Shown here piece after piece: positions 28,340 through 33,720 of a stretch of DNA of 64,000 nucleotides; positions within the stretch are counted from its first letter, which is position 1; each line of letters starts with the position of its first letter. The DNA lies in assembly GCF_003966655.1 (NCBI RefSeq), contig NZ_AP018795.1:372001-436000 (forward strand). The letters are read 5' to 3'. This stretch comes from Acidithiobacillus ferridurans. Its GTDB lineage: Bacteria; Pseudomonadota; Gammaproteobacteria; Acidithiobacillales; Acidithiobacillaceae. A program made the position numbers and the translations under genes. The notes beneath the pieces were generated by a model. It worked only from the letters and a program-made list of their open reading frames with translations, was not told the origin of the DNA and did not search any database.

Positions 28340-28924
28340 ATGGACCCCAAAGCACACCGCCTCGTCTGGATCGATCTGGAGATGACAGGTCTGCAGCCGG
28401 AACAGGATCAGATTTTGGAAATCGCCACGCTGGTCACGGACGATAGTCTGAGGATTCTCTGCGAAGGGCCGGTATTGGCCGTCCATCAACCGGAATTCGT
28501 GCTCGCGGCTCTGGATGACTGGAACCAGCGTACCCACAGCACTTCGGGCCTCCTGCAGCGGGTCCGCGACAGCCGCCTGGATATGGCCGCCGCAGAAACC
28601 CAAACCCTGGACTTCCTGCACCAGCATGTTACCACCGGCACATCACCGATTTGCGGCAACAGCGTATGTCAGGATCGCCGATTTTTAGCCCGCCTGATGC
28701 CGCGGCTGGAACGTTTTTTTCACTATCGGATGATCGATGTGAGCACCGTCAAGGAACTCGCCACCCGCTGGTATCCGCACCTGCCCAGATTTTCCAAGGC
28801 CGAGCGCCACGAAGCGCTGGCCGACATTCGCGAATCTGTTGCCGAACTGACTTATTATCGCGAACGACTTTTCCCGCAGACACCTTTTCCAGGCTCTGGG
28901 GCTGGAAACTCCGCCACTGAATAG
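28340..28924 (+). CDS. orn: Oligoribonuclease
   Basis: Orn degrades 2-5 nt RNA and pGpG in the cytoplasm. The 194-residue DEDDh exonuclease has [28 protein letters not shown] (first D and E), [31 protein letters not shown] (second D) and [20 protein letters not shown] (H and D). ATG 28340 gives the normal start. A TAGTGGGC/CCCACTGC stem follows the stop without a clear T-run. Confidence 0.95.
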
Positions 28925-29069
28925 GTGCCGGTAGTGGGCACACCCACTGCCGCGGCTTCTTTGCCGACACGGTGCAGACGCAACCACGCCAATGTTAAGA
29001 TGGCCGCTTGCAGCCGGTCGGCAGCCTGGCGCGGGGCGGTTGCGGCATTTTTTTGGAGGCACCAACGCG

Positions 29070-30155
29070 GTGGATATTGATCTCTTTTACGAACTCGCCG
29101 TACCCGCCCATATGGGTCGCAGTGAGGCTCAGGTTTATCATGAAACGCTGGATGAACTCAGTCTCGCCGATACCCTGGGTTTCCACGGCGCGTGGTTGGT
29201 GGAACACCATTTCATGCGGGAATACTCACACTCCAGTGCTCCAGAAACGGTCCTTGCCGCAGCCAGCCAGCGTACCCGGAATCTGCGTCTCGGGCACGCC
29301 GTCGTCGTCCTGCCCTACAATCACGCCATCCGGGTTGCGGAGCGCGCCGCCGCCTTGGATATTCTCAGCCATGGCCGTCTGGAGATGGGCATTGGGCGAG
29401 GGTTTTCTCCCAAGGAATATCAGATTTTCGGCAATCGGATGGCGGACAGCAGGCTGCACCTGCAGGAGGGGCTGCAAATCCTTCGCCAGGCCGGCGGCGG
29501 TGCTTTCAGCCATCACGGAAAACTCTACGACTTCAGTGAGCTGGACATTCTTCCCAAGCCTCTCCAGCAGCCTCACCCTCCTCTGTGGGTGGCGGCCGTG
29601 AGTCCGGCGACTTTCCAGTGGGCGGCACAAGAGGCCATCGGCGTGCTTTCCGGGCCGTTCAAACCCTGGTTCCTGATCAAACAGGATCTACGTGCCTATA
29701 AAAAGGCCTGGCGAGAGCAGCACGGAGACGGCCCTGTGCAGGCGGGCCAAAATGGGAACTTCGCCATGACCATAGGTTGTTTATGTTTGGAAGATGCTGC
29801 CGAGGCGCGTCGGCTGGCGGAAGGTTTCACCTGGTATTACCAGCGACTTCTGGATCAGACGCGACCGGTTCTGGTACAGCTGCGCGAAAGCTATGAATAC
29901 TACCATCGTCTCGGCTTTCTGGAGCCGCTGCTGCGCCGCGGCCTCAGCCTGCAACTACTGGAGACCATGGGCATGGTCGTCGTCGGTGACCCGGACACCT
30001 GTCGCCGACGGCTGGCCCGTTATGCCCGGGCAGGGGTAAATCGCCTGATTTTGGCCGTAGGTGCCGGGATGGTCCCCAGCGAGGTCACCCAGCGCTCATT
30101 GCGCCTGCTGGCCGATGAAGTACTGCCGGCCCTGCGCACCCCCTCCCCCCACTGA
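29070..30155 (+). CDS. LLM-class flavin-dependent monooxygenase (luciferase-like)
   Basis: The 361-residue product begins VDIDLFYELAVP, continues with LVEHHFMREYSHSSAPETVLAAASQRTRNLRLGHAVVVLPYNHAIRVAERAAALDILSHGRLEMGIGRG (cut here: HHF, YSHSSAPE and GIGRGF are the key blocks), and ends with a TIM-barrel typical GDPDTCRRRLARYARAGVNRLIL. Such enzymes use FMNH2 and O2 on aldehydes, alkanes, sulfonates or polyketides. GTG 29070 is chosen because TTGGAGGC lies about 10 nt upstream. It is the first of a tightly packed trio with an SDR and an AurF-type oxygenase. Confidence 0.85.
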   Translation: MDIDLFYELAVPAHMGRSEAQVYHETLDELSLADTLGFHGAWLVEHHFMREYSHSSAPETVLAAASQRTRNLRLGHAVVVLPYNHAIRVAERAAALDILSHGRLEMGIGRGFSPKEYQIFGNRMADSRLHLQEGLQILRQAGGGAFSHHGKLYDFSELDILPKPLQQPHPPLWVAAVSPATFQWAAQEAIGVLSGPFKPWFLIKQDLRAYKKAWREQHGDGPVQAGQNGNFAMTIGCLCLEDAAEARRLAEGFTWYYQRLLDQTRPVLVQLRESYEYYHRLGFLEPLLRRGLSLQLLETMGMVVVGDPDTCRRRLARYARAGVNRLILAVGAGMVPSEVTQRSLRLLADEVLPALRTPSPH

Positions 30156-31117
30156 TGCAGGTGTTGGTCACCGGCGCGGCTGGGCATACGGCAGCGGCTC
30201 TGCTGCCGGCCCTGCTCGCCTGGCCGTATATCCGCCGGATTATCGCCCTGGACCGACGACCGCCGGCATTGCAGCATCCCAAACTATATTACCTGCCTCT
30301 GGATATCCGTGACCCACAGTTGGCGGAGCACCTGACTGGCGTGGATTGCGTCATCCATCTTGCCTTTATGGTACTCAGCCCTCGCCTTGGACCGCAGCAG
30401 CGCTGGCGTGCGGAAATGCGCCAGGTCAATCTTGACGGCAGTCAGCACCTGTTCCTTGCGGCCGCAGATGCCGGCGTACCGCAAGTCGTCTATTCCGGCA
30501 GTGTGGCCGCCTATGGCGCCTGGCCGGATAATCCGGTTCCCATCGGCGAGAACCAACCTTGTCGGCCAGTACCCGGTTTTGCCTACAGTGAGGATAAGGC
30601 CGCACTGGAGCAGTGGCTGGATGGGTTCACGGCTGCTCAGAAAAAAACCGCTGTCACCCGCCTGCGCTTGCACGCCATTATCGGCCCCCATGGGCAGGCC
30701 CTGGTGAATGAGATTGCGACGAGTTCTTACGGACTGCGACTAAGCAATCCGGACCTGCCCATCCAGTGTCTCCATGAAGACGACGCGGCCAGCGCAATAC
30801 TGGCCGCGCTCCGTTATGGACAGGAAGGCATCTTCAACATCGCGGCGCCTGATCCTATCTCTTGGTCCAGCATTCCCCGCCGTTGGCAGTTGCCCCTTTC
30901 ACCCACGCAACTGCACGGTCTGCACAGGTGGCTGCGGCCCCTCAGCACTCGTCTTGGCGATCCCGGCTGGCTGCAGGTACTGGAAAATCCACTGATCGTC
31001 GATATTTCCAGCGCCCGGCAGAAATTGAAGTGGCAGCCTCGCTATGACGTACGTCACGCGATAAACCAAGTGCGTAATACCTGCGGACGGAGCCCGATAC
31101 ACCCTTGGAGCGGCTGA
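30155..31117 (+). CDS. NAD-dependent epimerase/dehydratase (SDR family)
   Basis: The 320-residue protein has the extended-SDR layout: VLVTGAAGHTAAALLPALL (nucleotide-binding G-x-x-G-x-x region, slightly degenerate: GAAGHTA), DCVIHLAF, VYSGSVAAYGAW and a catalytic Y-x-x-x-K in FAYSEDKAALEQW. The substrate could be a sugar nucleotide or another alcohol/ketone. Its ATG overlaps the stop of the monooxygenase gene by one base. Confidence 0.82.
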   Translation: MQVLVTGAAGHTAAALLPALLAWPYIRRIIALDRRPPALQHPKLYYLPLDIRDPQLAEHLTGVDCVIHLAFMVLSPRLGPQQRWRAEMRQVNLDGSQHLFLAAADAGVPQVVYSGSVAAYGAWPDNPVPIGENQPCRPVPGFAYSEDKAALEQWLDGFTAAQKKTAVTRLRLHAIIGPHGQALVNEIATSSYGLRLSNPDLPIQCLHEDDAASAILAALRYGQEGIFNIAAPDPISWSSIPRRWQLPLSPTQLHGLHRWLRPLSTRLGDPGWLQVLENPLIVDISSARQKLKWQPRYDVRHAINQVRNTCGRSPIHPWSG

Positions 31118-31123
31118 GCGTCC

Positions 31124-32029
31124 GTGGCAGAATGGCTTATGAACTTTGCTCATCATATTCCTGCGCAAGCGCAGATCCAGCGGCACCATGACGCCTTGGT
31201 CAACCGGCTCAGCGAGCACAGCAGTCACTACCGGGACCCGGTCCAGACAGTCCCCTGGGAAAGCCTCGACGCGGAAGCGGCTTGGCTCCCGGAAGAGTTG
31301 CTGTCCCTGTATGGGTTGCCTGAATACTCACAGCTGAGTCCGGAGGAGCGTGTCCGCCTTTCCCAGGTCGAGTTCGTCTCCTTTTGCGAGTTGGGCTTGT
31401 GGCTGGAAGCACTCTTTATCCAACGCCTTGGCGCCAATTCACTCCAGGAGATGTACCGCGACCCGGTCAGTTACCACTATCAGTTGCACGAACTGCGGGA
31501 AGAAGTGGGGCACAGCCTCATGTTTCTGGAGCTACAGCGACGTTCACAGCGCTCCTTCATGACACCGCTGAGCCAGCGCCCGCCACTGGCGCGTCTTTTC
31601 GCCCGCTACGCGCCGGAAGGCTCGGCCGCTTTCTGGGCTACCATCCTCATCGGCGAGAACGTGCCCGATCGCGTGAACCGTATCATCTTCGCCCACAAAG
31701 AGTTACCCGCTGCGGTGCTGACCATCACCCATGTGCATATGCGCGAAGAAGCCCGCCATATGGCCTTCGCGCGCACCACTATCCAGATGCGCAGCCAGGC
31801 CATGAGCCGGGCGAAAAAACTTCTGATCAGCCCCGTCCTGCGCGAGGTTTTCCGGCAGTTTTTGCGGACCTGCTTCTTCCCGTCCGAACAGGTCTATGCG
31901 GCAGCCGGGCTGGGCAATCCGCGGATCTGGGCGCGACGTGCGCGCCGCAATCCACACCGTATCGATCTGATGAACCAGTGTGCGCTTCCCAGCCGGGATT
32001 TCCTGCGCACCCAGGGCTTTGCCTTGTGA
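31124..32029 (+). CDS. AurF-like diiron oxygenase
   Basis: The 301-residue helical protein carries two ferritin-like metal motifs with the expected spacing: FCELGLWLEAL (E), REEVGHSLMF (E-x-x-H), ILIGENVPDRVN (E) and THVHMREEARHMAF (H and E-x-x-H). This matches p-aminobenzoate N-oxygenase AurF and relatives, which oxidise amines or other substrates at a non-haem diiron centre. GTG 31124 is taken as start, with GGAGCGG 10 nt upstream, six bases after the SDR stop. The substrate is not known. Together with the flavin monooxygenase and SDR it suggests an oxidative tailoring pathway. Confidence 0.72.
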   Translation: MAEWLMNFAHHIPAQAQIQRHHDALVNRLSEHSSHYRDPVQTVPWESLDAEAAWLPEELLSLYGLPEYSQLSPEERVRLSQVEFVSFCELGLWLEALFIQRLGANSLQEMYRDPVSYHYQLHELREEVGHSLMFLELQRRSQRSFMTPLSQRPPLARLFARYAPEGSAAFWATILIGENVPDRVNRIIFAHKELPAAVLTITHVHMREEARHMAFARTTIQMRSQAMSRAKKLLISPVLREVFRQFLRTCFFPSEQVYAAAGLGNPRIWARRARRNPHRIDLMNQCALPSRDFLRTQGFAL

Positions 32030-32073
32030 TCCGCGCTTTCCTGCTATAGTTTGAGAGTTGACGTTCCACTTGA

Positions 32074-33720
<1,647 letters not shown>

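Follow-up and report, generated by a model that had tools for sequence, protein, structure and literature searches.

Three adjoining genes of Acidithiobacillus ferridurans encode a luciferase-like flavin monooxygenase (LLM), an extended short-chain dehydrogenase/reductase (SDR) and an AurF-like diiron protein, and these probably supply three steps of a single oxidative pathway whose substrate is a small metabolite and which occurs chiefly in autotrophic, sulfur-oxidising Gammaproteobacteria. They were studied in a stretch of 64,000 nucleotides (NCBI RefSeq contig NZ_AP018795.1, positions 372,001 to 436,000 of the forward strand), here called the window, whose genome is a single contig of 2.92 Mb. 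The proposal is made because the active-site or metal-ligand residues of SDR and AurF are conserved, LLM is strongly conserved, and the three genes occur together across genomes whether they are linked or not. In window coordinates the genes are:

29070 to 30155, + strand: LLM, luciferase-like flavin monooxygenase, 361 amino acids, GTG start (PF00296)
30155 to 31117, + strand: SDR, extended NAD(P)-dependent short-chain dehydrogenase/epimerase-like protein, 320 amino acids (PF01370; S116, Y144, K148)
31139 to 32029, + strand: AurF-like diiron protein, 296 amino acids from the ATG at 31139 (PF11583, starts of relatives, fold, ligands)

An earlier reading made from the letters of the window alone, the sequence-only reading, had assigned the products to these same three enzyme types, and all three indeed score above the Pfam curated cut-offs. 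LLM, whose frame sits within a longer one opening at 28992, matches PF00296 (Bac_luciferase) with 191.4 bits against a cut-off of 27.9, and 96 of its positions are at least 95% identical in 28 sequences. Because it falls under the curated cut-off of every NCBIfam model listed (25 of 33 matches), the best of them an F420 model, LLM is, by profile comparison, an unnamed luciferase-like subfamily. Its closest solved relatives by sequence are 7bip and 8cbb; plasmid records yielded no close relative, the best one listed being 35.5% identical. SDR matches PF01370 (Epimerase) with 72.5 bits, above the curated cut-off, and lies under the cut-off of all 15 NCBIfam models that it matched. Its S116, Y144 and K148 (S and YxxxK) reach 95% identity or more across 28 aligned SDRs; the N-terminal glycine-rich motif reads TGAAGHT in the window, and 95% conservation in this alignment is limited to its T6 and G7.

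The distribution of LLM, SDR and AurF was followed across a single set of 369 genomes sampled from the class, with genome lists for the statistics entered by hand from tables and with family numbers (f1 etc.) that are the sample's own. LLM was counted at 48% identity or more, SDR at E 1e-30 or better and AurF as strong from 96 bits upwards; LLM or SDR is called absent where there was no match at E 1e-60 or 1e-30, respectively, only the best few first-look candidates having been scored per genome. LLM matched at E 1e-60 or better in 26 genomes, two of which, G510 and G627, were excluded as having LLMs of another kind (37-39% identity). The resulting counts were 24 genomes with LLM, 23 with SDR and 22 with both. 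The two genes adjoin in 21 of these 22 and lie on separate contigs in the fragmented G600. Outside the window's family the LLM homologues are 48-67% identical, and SDR adjoins them except in G600 and in G502 and G572, which have no SDR.

AurF follows this pair closely. Any match to AurF was found in 50 of the 369 genomes, a match above the cut-off in 41 and one of at least 96 bits in 27; the last class comprises 21 of the 22 pair genomes and 6 of the 347 others (Fisher 7e-28). Leaving out the five linked genomes and counting all above-cut-off AurF proteins gives 16 of 17 pair genomes against 20 of 352 others (Fisher 3e-17). The set of three occurs in 14 families of the class sample. In 16 of the 21 three-gene genomes (12 families) AurF lies apart from LLM-SDR, adjacency being seen in three families only. 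Among 20 AurF neighbourhoods of other families, four show the order LLM-SDR-AurF (G586, G448, G649 and G539, from two families). In three of them, measured from the first start codon, LLM and SDR are 2-15 nt apart and SDR and AurF -4 to 38 nt; in L097, if that codon is used, the AurF frame shares 4 nt with the SDR frame. The other 16 neighbourhoods are without a close LLM-SDR pair, which is found elsewhere in 13 of those 16 genomes. The set thus extends beyond the local operon, and as far as comparative evidence can speak to it, co-function of the three proteins is well supported.

Six genomes carry a strong AurF without the pair (G130, G433, G455, G546, G592 and G759). The proteins of G433 and G455 are 25-28% identical and lie outside the set's clade, those of G130 and G546 are 21% and 16% identical, that of G759 gave no tblastn match, and that of G592, from a genome 72% complete, is 38% identical and inside the set's clade. 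Two genomes of G564's genus, G762 (L092) and G671 (L093), also carry a lower-scoring AurF, 35-38% identical, which is perhaps a paralogue or the remnant of a decayed set; neither LLM nor SDR reached the thresholds in them. In a draw of 398 genomes from the phylum, a single-protein search found AurF relatives in three, the window's genome included.

Phylogenies of the three proteins were midpoint-rooted. Both the LLM tree (100/100) and the SDR tree (100/99) unite the families with linked genes, f1, f89 and f202, in one clade. The AurF tree sets 28 rows (the set members with G592, G671 and G762) opposite the very long-branched G433 and G455, and in it 18 other rows split from f1, f89 and f202 with 100/99. 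The trees fit, and do not prove, a history in which AurF would have joined LLM-SDR once in the common line of the three families and later been lost from this arrangement in two genera of the window's family, g2 and g4.

Lifestyle markers were searched in 80 of the 369 genomes, comprising 21 with the set, four with part of it (G600, G741, G502, G572), six with AurF only and 49 controls. As controls served every fourth genome, by number from G426 to G642, that had no LLM (at least 48%), SDR or above-cut-off AurF, with G430 (62% complete) omitted; some of them are incomplete, namely G518, G614 and G582 (0.3 Mb). RuBisCO at E < 1e-100 was present in all 21 set genomes, all four partial ones, three of the six AurF-only genomes and 21 of the 49 controls (p 1.4e-6), partial matches in the controls G474 (1e-70) and G570 (4e-55) being left uncounted. 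When all above-cut-off matches, weak and partial ones included, were taken, RuBisCO was found in 54 of the 80 genomes and 26 of the 49 controls.

The second marker was the B2 subunit of the sHdr system. In the window's genome the sHdr cluster (L172) begins with a dsrE-like gene, hdrC1, B1, A, a further protein, hdrC2 and B2, followed by genes for a lipoyl-carrier-like protein, a second DsrE-like protein, a second carrier, a radical-SAM-like and a ligase-like protein. Pfam recognised Fer4 domains in C2, CCG in B2 and GCV_H in the carrier, with no match for the further protein; the remaining genes were named by eye and by the published order, given in PMC6335251 as hdrC1B1A-hyp-hdrC2B2. A B2 of at least 77% identity was found in 18 of the 21 set genomes, one of the four partial ones (G572), none of the six AurF-only genomes and none of the 49 controls, and seven further genomes (two with the set, one partial, four controls) had only B2 relatives of 29-33%. 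The Fisher probability was 5.7e-14 against all controls and 3.8e-9 against the 21 RuBisCO-bearing ones (0 of 21). Counted by family, 11 of 14 stand against 0 of 21 (p 9e-7, f171 being counted on both sides). Inside f137 (G605 and G705 versus G474) and f171 (G508 versus G626) the set and sHdrB2 are jointly present or absent; f120, f130 and f165 give no such within-family support, and in f202 the incomplete G741 is without sHdrB2, LLM and AurF. Judged by this distribution, sulfur chemolithoautotrophs are the usual hosts of this AurF subfamily. The remark in the sequence-only reading that AurF-type oxygenases are rare in chemolithotrophs therefore fails for this subfamily, which is concentrated in RuBisCO- and sHdr-bearing genomes. 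The tie of the whole set to sulfur autotrophy is suggestive.

A role in hopanoid tailoring, considered on account of weak SDR matches to HpnA and SdmB, was rejected: squalene-hopene cyclase was above the cut-off in only 7 of the 21 set genomes (2 of 4 partial, 1 of 6 AurF-only, 6 of 49 controls).

Several observations weigh against a single pathway tied to sulfur oxidation. AurF proteins of the set's clade occur without LLM or SDR in G592, G671 and G762; G600 has the pair without AurF, G741 SDR alone, G502 (L155) LLM alone, and G572 (L153) LLM and sHdrB2 with no SDR or AurF at the thresholds. The set genomes G457, G467 and G720 have no close sHdrB2, and the set lies 114 kb from sHdr in the window's genome and 1.1-1.3 Mb from it in G765 and G441. 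The AurF tree departs from those of LLM and SDR in that its outgroup joins at f202, f1+f89 thereby grouping with the 18 other rows (96/94); given the long branches, this root is not trusted. Many forks outside the linked families are unsettled. Finally, the Fisher tests take genomes as independent, without a species tree, and kinship could give the associations with RuBisCO and sHdr. That these associations reflect shared ancestry alone, the set being an old trait retained by kindred lithoautotrophic lineages and functionally independent of sulfur oxidation, is therefore a reading to be taken seriously, if not one we prefer: the distance between set and sHdr on the chromosomes measured and the three set genomes without close sHdrB2 agree with it, and the statistics take no account of a species tree. 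It accounts less well for a spread over 14 families and for the joint presence or absence of set and sHdrB2 inside f137 and f171. The stronger proposal that the set is required for sHdr-type lithotrophic sulfur oxidation, making an oxygenated cofactor or carrier or detoxifying an organosulfur or amine by-product, such that sulfur-grown cells would fail without it, appears rather unlikely.

The chemistry of the one-pathway proposal depends most on the AurF-like protein, whose residues are numbered here from the ATG at 31139. It scores 153.1 bits against PF11583 (curated cut-off 29.6) and has no NCBIfam match at E 0.01. Six residues (E90, E122, H125, H200, E204, H207) are invariant in 24 aligned AurF-like proteins and E173 is kept in at least 90%, and the seven-ligand pattern E, ExxH, E, H, ExxH is complete in the window's protein. 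A profile of the 24-protein alignment matched the solved structures of CmlI (E 1.4e-14) and AurF (about 1e-12), and its ligand columns coincide with Glu and His residues of both, which we take to be the metal ligands of AurF. PDB sequence searches with the single protein or a family-only alignment did not retrieve AurF; the wider alignment did. An AlphaFold2 model of medium quality (predicted local distance difference test 73.6, predicted template modelling score 0.78, 13 sequences; four other models scored 40 to 56) had CmlI and AurF at Foldseek ranks 1-9. VIA-align gave Z scores of 17.7 for CmlI, 16.6 for AurF, 15.8 for the R2-like oxidase (R2lox) and 15.4 for ribonucleotide reductase R2. 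The model thus points to an AurF/CmlI-like fold of the R2-like kind. The sequence-only reading would have been refuted had a structure prediction placed the product of 31124-32029 in another ferritin-like family lacking a diiron site; this model is instead closest to CmlI and AurF, and the ligands are kept.

This resemblance also speaks for a more specific scheme, following the sequence-only reading, in which the AurF-like protein would convert an amine of primary metabolism to a hydroxylamine, nitroso or nitro product that LLM and SDR tailor. The closest solved structures, CmlI and AurF, are arylamine oxygenases and share the ligand columns, and we hold an N-oxygenase pathway of this sort to be possible though doubtful. 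Identity to both is only about 15%. AurF R96, presumably the anchor for the carboxylate of p-aminobenzoate, is replaced by L85 in the window's protein and by Leu, Ala or Gly in the other set members aligned, none of these residues being basic, so that p-aminobenzoate-like acids are unlikely substrates on this evidence; CmlI likewise has no Arg in that column of the profile alignment. The family moreover includes other chemistry, such as the conversion of hydroxylamine to N2 by DnfA described in PMC9478400.

In plasmid records no close AurF relative was found (30 records matched, the best among the 20 listed at 30.3% identity). The window's genome holds a second PF11583-like protein, at 28.4 bits just under the cut-off (L002:1318-2463; G000:C1, about 1186149-1186604). 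Its gene adjoins an ftsZ-like gene, as recognised by eye, and the same partial match is seen in several genomes of the class.

Within the window's family the three genes are nearly universal. AurF and LLM were each found in 28 of 29 genomes, the exceptions being 71% and 61% complete, respectively, and SDR (at least 54% identity) in 27 of 29, absent from the same two incomplete genomes; the AurF subfamily is thus a core gene of this mineral-leaching family. The named relatives are mostly Acidithiobacillus, and the A. ferruginosus AurF is 99% identical. Throughout the window's genus (17 of 17 genomes) SDR adjoins AurF, as it does in G020, which belongs to a second genus. LLM was seen ahead of both in 15 of these 17, a contig break cutting off the remaining two, and is partly visible in G020. 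In the genera g2 and g4 neither LLM nor SDR lies 5' of AurF (10 loci). LLM and SDR stand together behind an oligoribonuclease gene at a separate site in G021, G017 and G028, and the g2 and g4 loci viewed show AurF, a small open reading frame (ORF) and a phosphoglucomutase (PGM) gene divergent from ffh. This split had at an early stage been taken to mean that LLM-SDR and AurF are unrelated, a view overturned by their linkage and co-occurrence in other families. The surroundings of the three genes in the window are:

31105 to 31133, + strand: conserved promoter-like element TTGGAG-17-CAGAAT, just 5' of the AurF ATG, over the end of the SDR gene
32030 to 32088, + strand: AurF-PGM junction, without the ORF of about 90 amino acids found in most printed family loci (from gap lengths)
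28340 to 28924, + strand: oligoribonuclease-like exonuclease (context; PF00929)
32089 to 33720, + strand: phosphoglucomutase, PGM (context; PF02878, PF02879, PF02880)

The frames read from the window are 29070-30155, 30155-31117 and 31124-32029, all on the + strand, and the junctions derived from them by the sequence-only reading were half right. LLM and SDR do share 1 nt, at position 30155; the 6-nt gap between SDR and AurF is not retained, because relatives carry stops between the GTG at 31124 and a shared ATG. A stop codon lies within the stretch aligned from that GTG in 11 of the 28 family genomes with an AurF match, and in 6 of 13 printed loci the fourth codon is a stop, ahead of the ATG conserved throughout the genus. 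As judged from this alignment, the AurF start is the ATG at 31139 and the gap is 21 nt.

The idea of a plain single operon did not survive either, since AurF has a conserved promoter-like element of its own in addition to lying apart from LLM-SDR in most three-gene genomes. The pattern TTGGA-17-CA[GC]AAT is found 5' of AurF in 16 of 17 family loci and the variant TTTACA-16-CACAAT in the 17th, the pattern having been composed after viewing some of the sequences and without a computed chance expectation. The element is kept in L046 and L048, where ffh (Pfam) and not SDR adjoins upstream, and in L061, where the ffh neighbour was recognised by eye; AurF is therefore probably transcribable on its own. 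With its -10-like box very near the ATG, the AurF message may possibly be leaderless in the window's genus.

These features, and the presence of PGM 3' of AurF in all 28 family genomes with AurF, whether LLM-SDR adjoins or not, would also fit a function of AurF with the small ORF and PGM, for instance in envelope sugar metabolism, LLM-SDR being incidental neighbours. We consider this improbable, as none of the 20 AurF neighbourhoods of other families has a match to PGM or the small ORF, 17 of those 20 genomes carry LLM-SDR, and the small ORF is missing from the window's own clade. The AurF-PGM gap measures 62 nt in the window, L031 and L032 and 300-329 nt in ten other printed family loci; the ORF in the longer gap, 89 amino acids in L034 without a Pfam match there, is missing in the window, L031 and L032. 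A chance meeting of three unrelated oxidoreductases, to which the non-adjacent AurF of 16 of the 21 three-gene genomes might seem to speak, is very improbable in view of the unlinked co-occurrence (Fisher 3e-17) and the same order in three families, and on these distributions the adjacency is not a product of chance.

Upstream of LLM-SDR, the oligoribonuclease gene recurs in L059 (9714-10247), L060 and L063, where AurF lies elsewhere, and a small divergent ORF stands directly 5' of LLM in L039 (5683-5931; no Pfam match) and L063. No shared neighbour gene was found at the AurF and LLM loci of other families except a DUF72-like gene, which is divergent from LLM at a distance of 1-146 nt in eight of them (L157:5240-5869, L154:8411-9112 and six more). 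It matches PF01904 with 46.6 bits in L154, and weakly or not at all in three others tested. In several other families LLM-SDR lies, by eye and among the neighbours listed, between hisG-, mlaC- and BolA-like genes and lptC- and rpoN-like genes, surroundings that could be a hint at the envelope or mere gene order.

If the three proteins act together as we propose, the simplest scheme would be a short pathway of two O2-using steps and one NAD(P) step. The AurF-like diiron enzyme would hydroxylate or N-oxygenate the substrate, drawing on O2 and an external reductant; SDR, with NAD(P), would convert between hydroxyl and keto groups; and LLM would carry out a second monooxygenation, for example of the Baeyer-Villiger type, with O2 and reduced flavin. 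LLM-SDR would be the core pair and AurF a separately transcribable partner. The sequence-only reading had pointed out that obvious carrier-protein or synthase genes are lacking; likewise, no carrier-protein, synthase or transporter gene was noticed beside the oxidases among the listed neighbours, which were compared by ORF similarity and only in few cases against Pfam. The substrate may for this reason come from primary metabolism. More tentatively, the product might serve sulfur-driven autotrophy, or the set might clear one of its by-products.

AurF-type enzymes are known chiefly from antibiotic pathways. Here, a distinct AurF subfamily accompanies two other oxidising enzymes, mostly in sHdr-bearing autotrophs, and if the three act together they would represent a metabolic step that has so far gone unrecognised in organisms that matter for bioleaching and acid mine drainage. 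The set consists of known enzyme kinds, is conserved, and is undescribed in the literature searched. That search, which left most subscription papers outside, returned none joining Acidithiobacillus with AurF or a luciferase-like monooxygenase, or AurF with sulfur-oxidizing bacteria, and the terms 'luciferase', 'diiron' and 'monooxygenase' are absent from the main text of the sHdr/LbpA papers PMC6067878 and PMC10332631.

Among known systems, the sHdr system with LbpA shares its host genomes with the set in 18 of 21 cases; the two are unlinked where measured and have no known component in common. LLM resembles the luciferase-like flavin monooxygenases of PF00296 in its family score of 191.4 bits and differs in lying below the listed NCBIfam cut-offs. 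The same holds for SDR and the extended SDRs (NAD-dependent epimerases/dehydratases and 3-beta-hydroxysteroid dehydrogenase), with which it shares PF01370, S and YxxxK while staying below the NCBIfam cut-offs. The AurF and CmlI N-oxygenases (PF11583) are alike in family profile, fold and metal-ligand columns; they differ by an identity of only about 15%, by the Arg of AurF at the R96 place, which the set does not have, and by their arylamine or antibiotic clusters, none of which was noticed near the set. Characterised members of the AurF family include natural-product N-oxygenases and DnfA, a hydroxylamine oxidase (PMC9478400). DnfA of the Alcaligenes Dirammox system, likened here by its description there, is likewise a proteobacterial AurF-family protein with the AurF/CmlI diiron motif (PMC9478400); its cluster also encodes a reductase and a glutamine amidotransferase, whereas the partners in the window are LLM and SDR.

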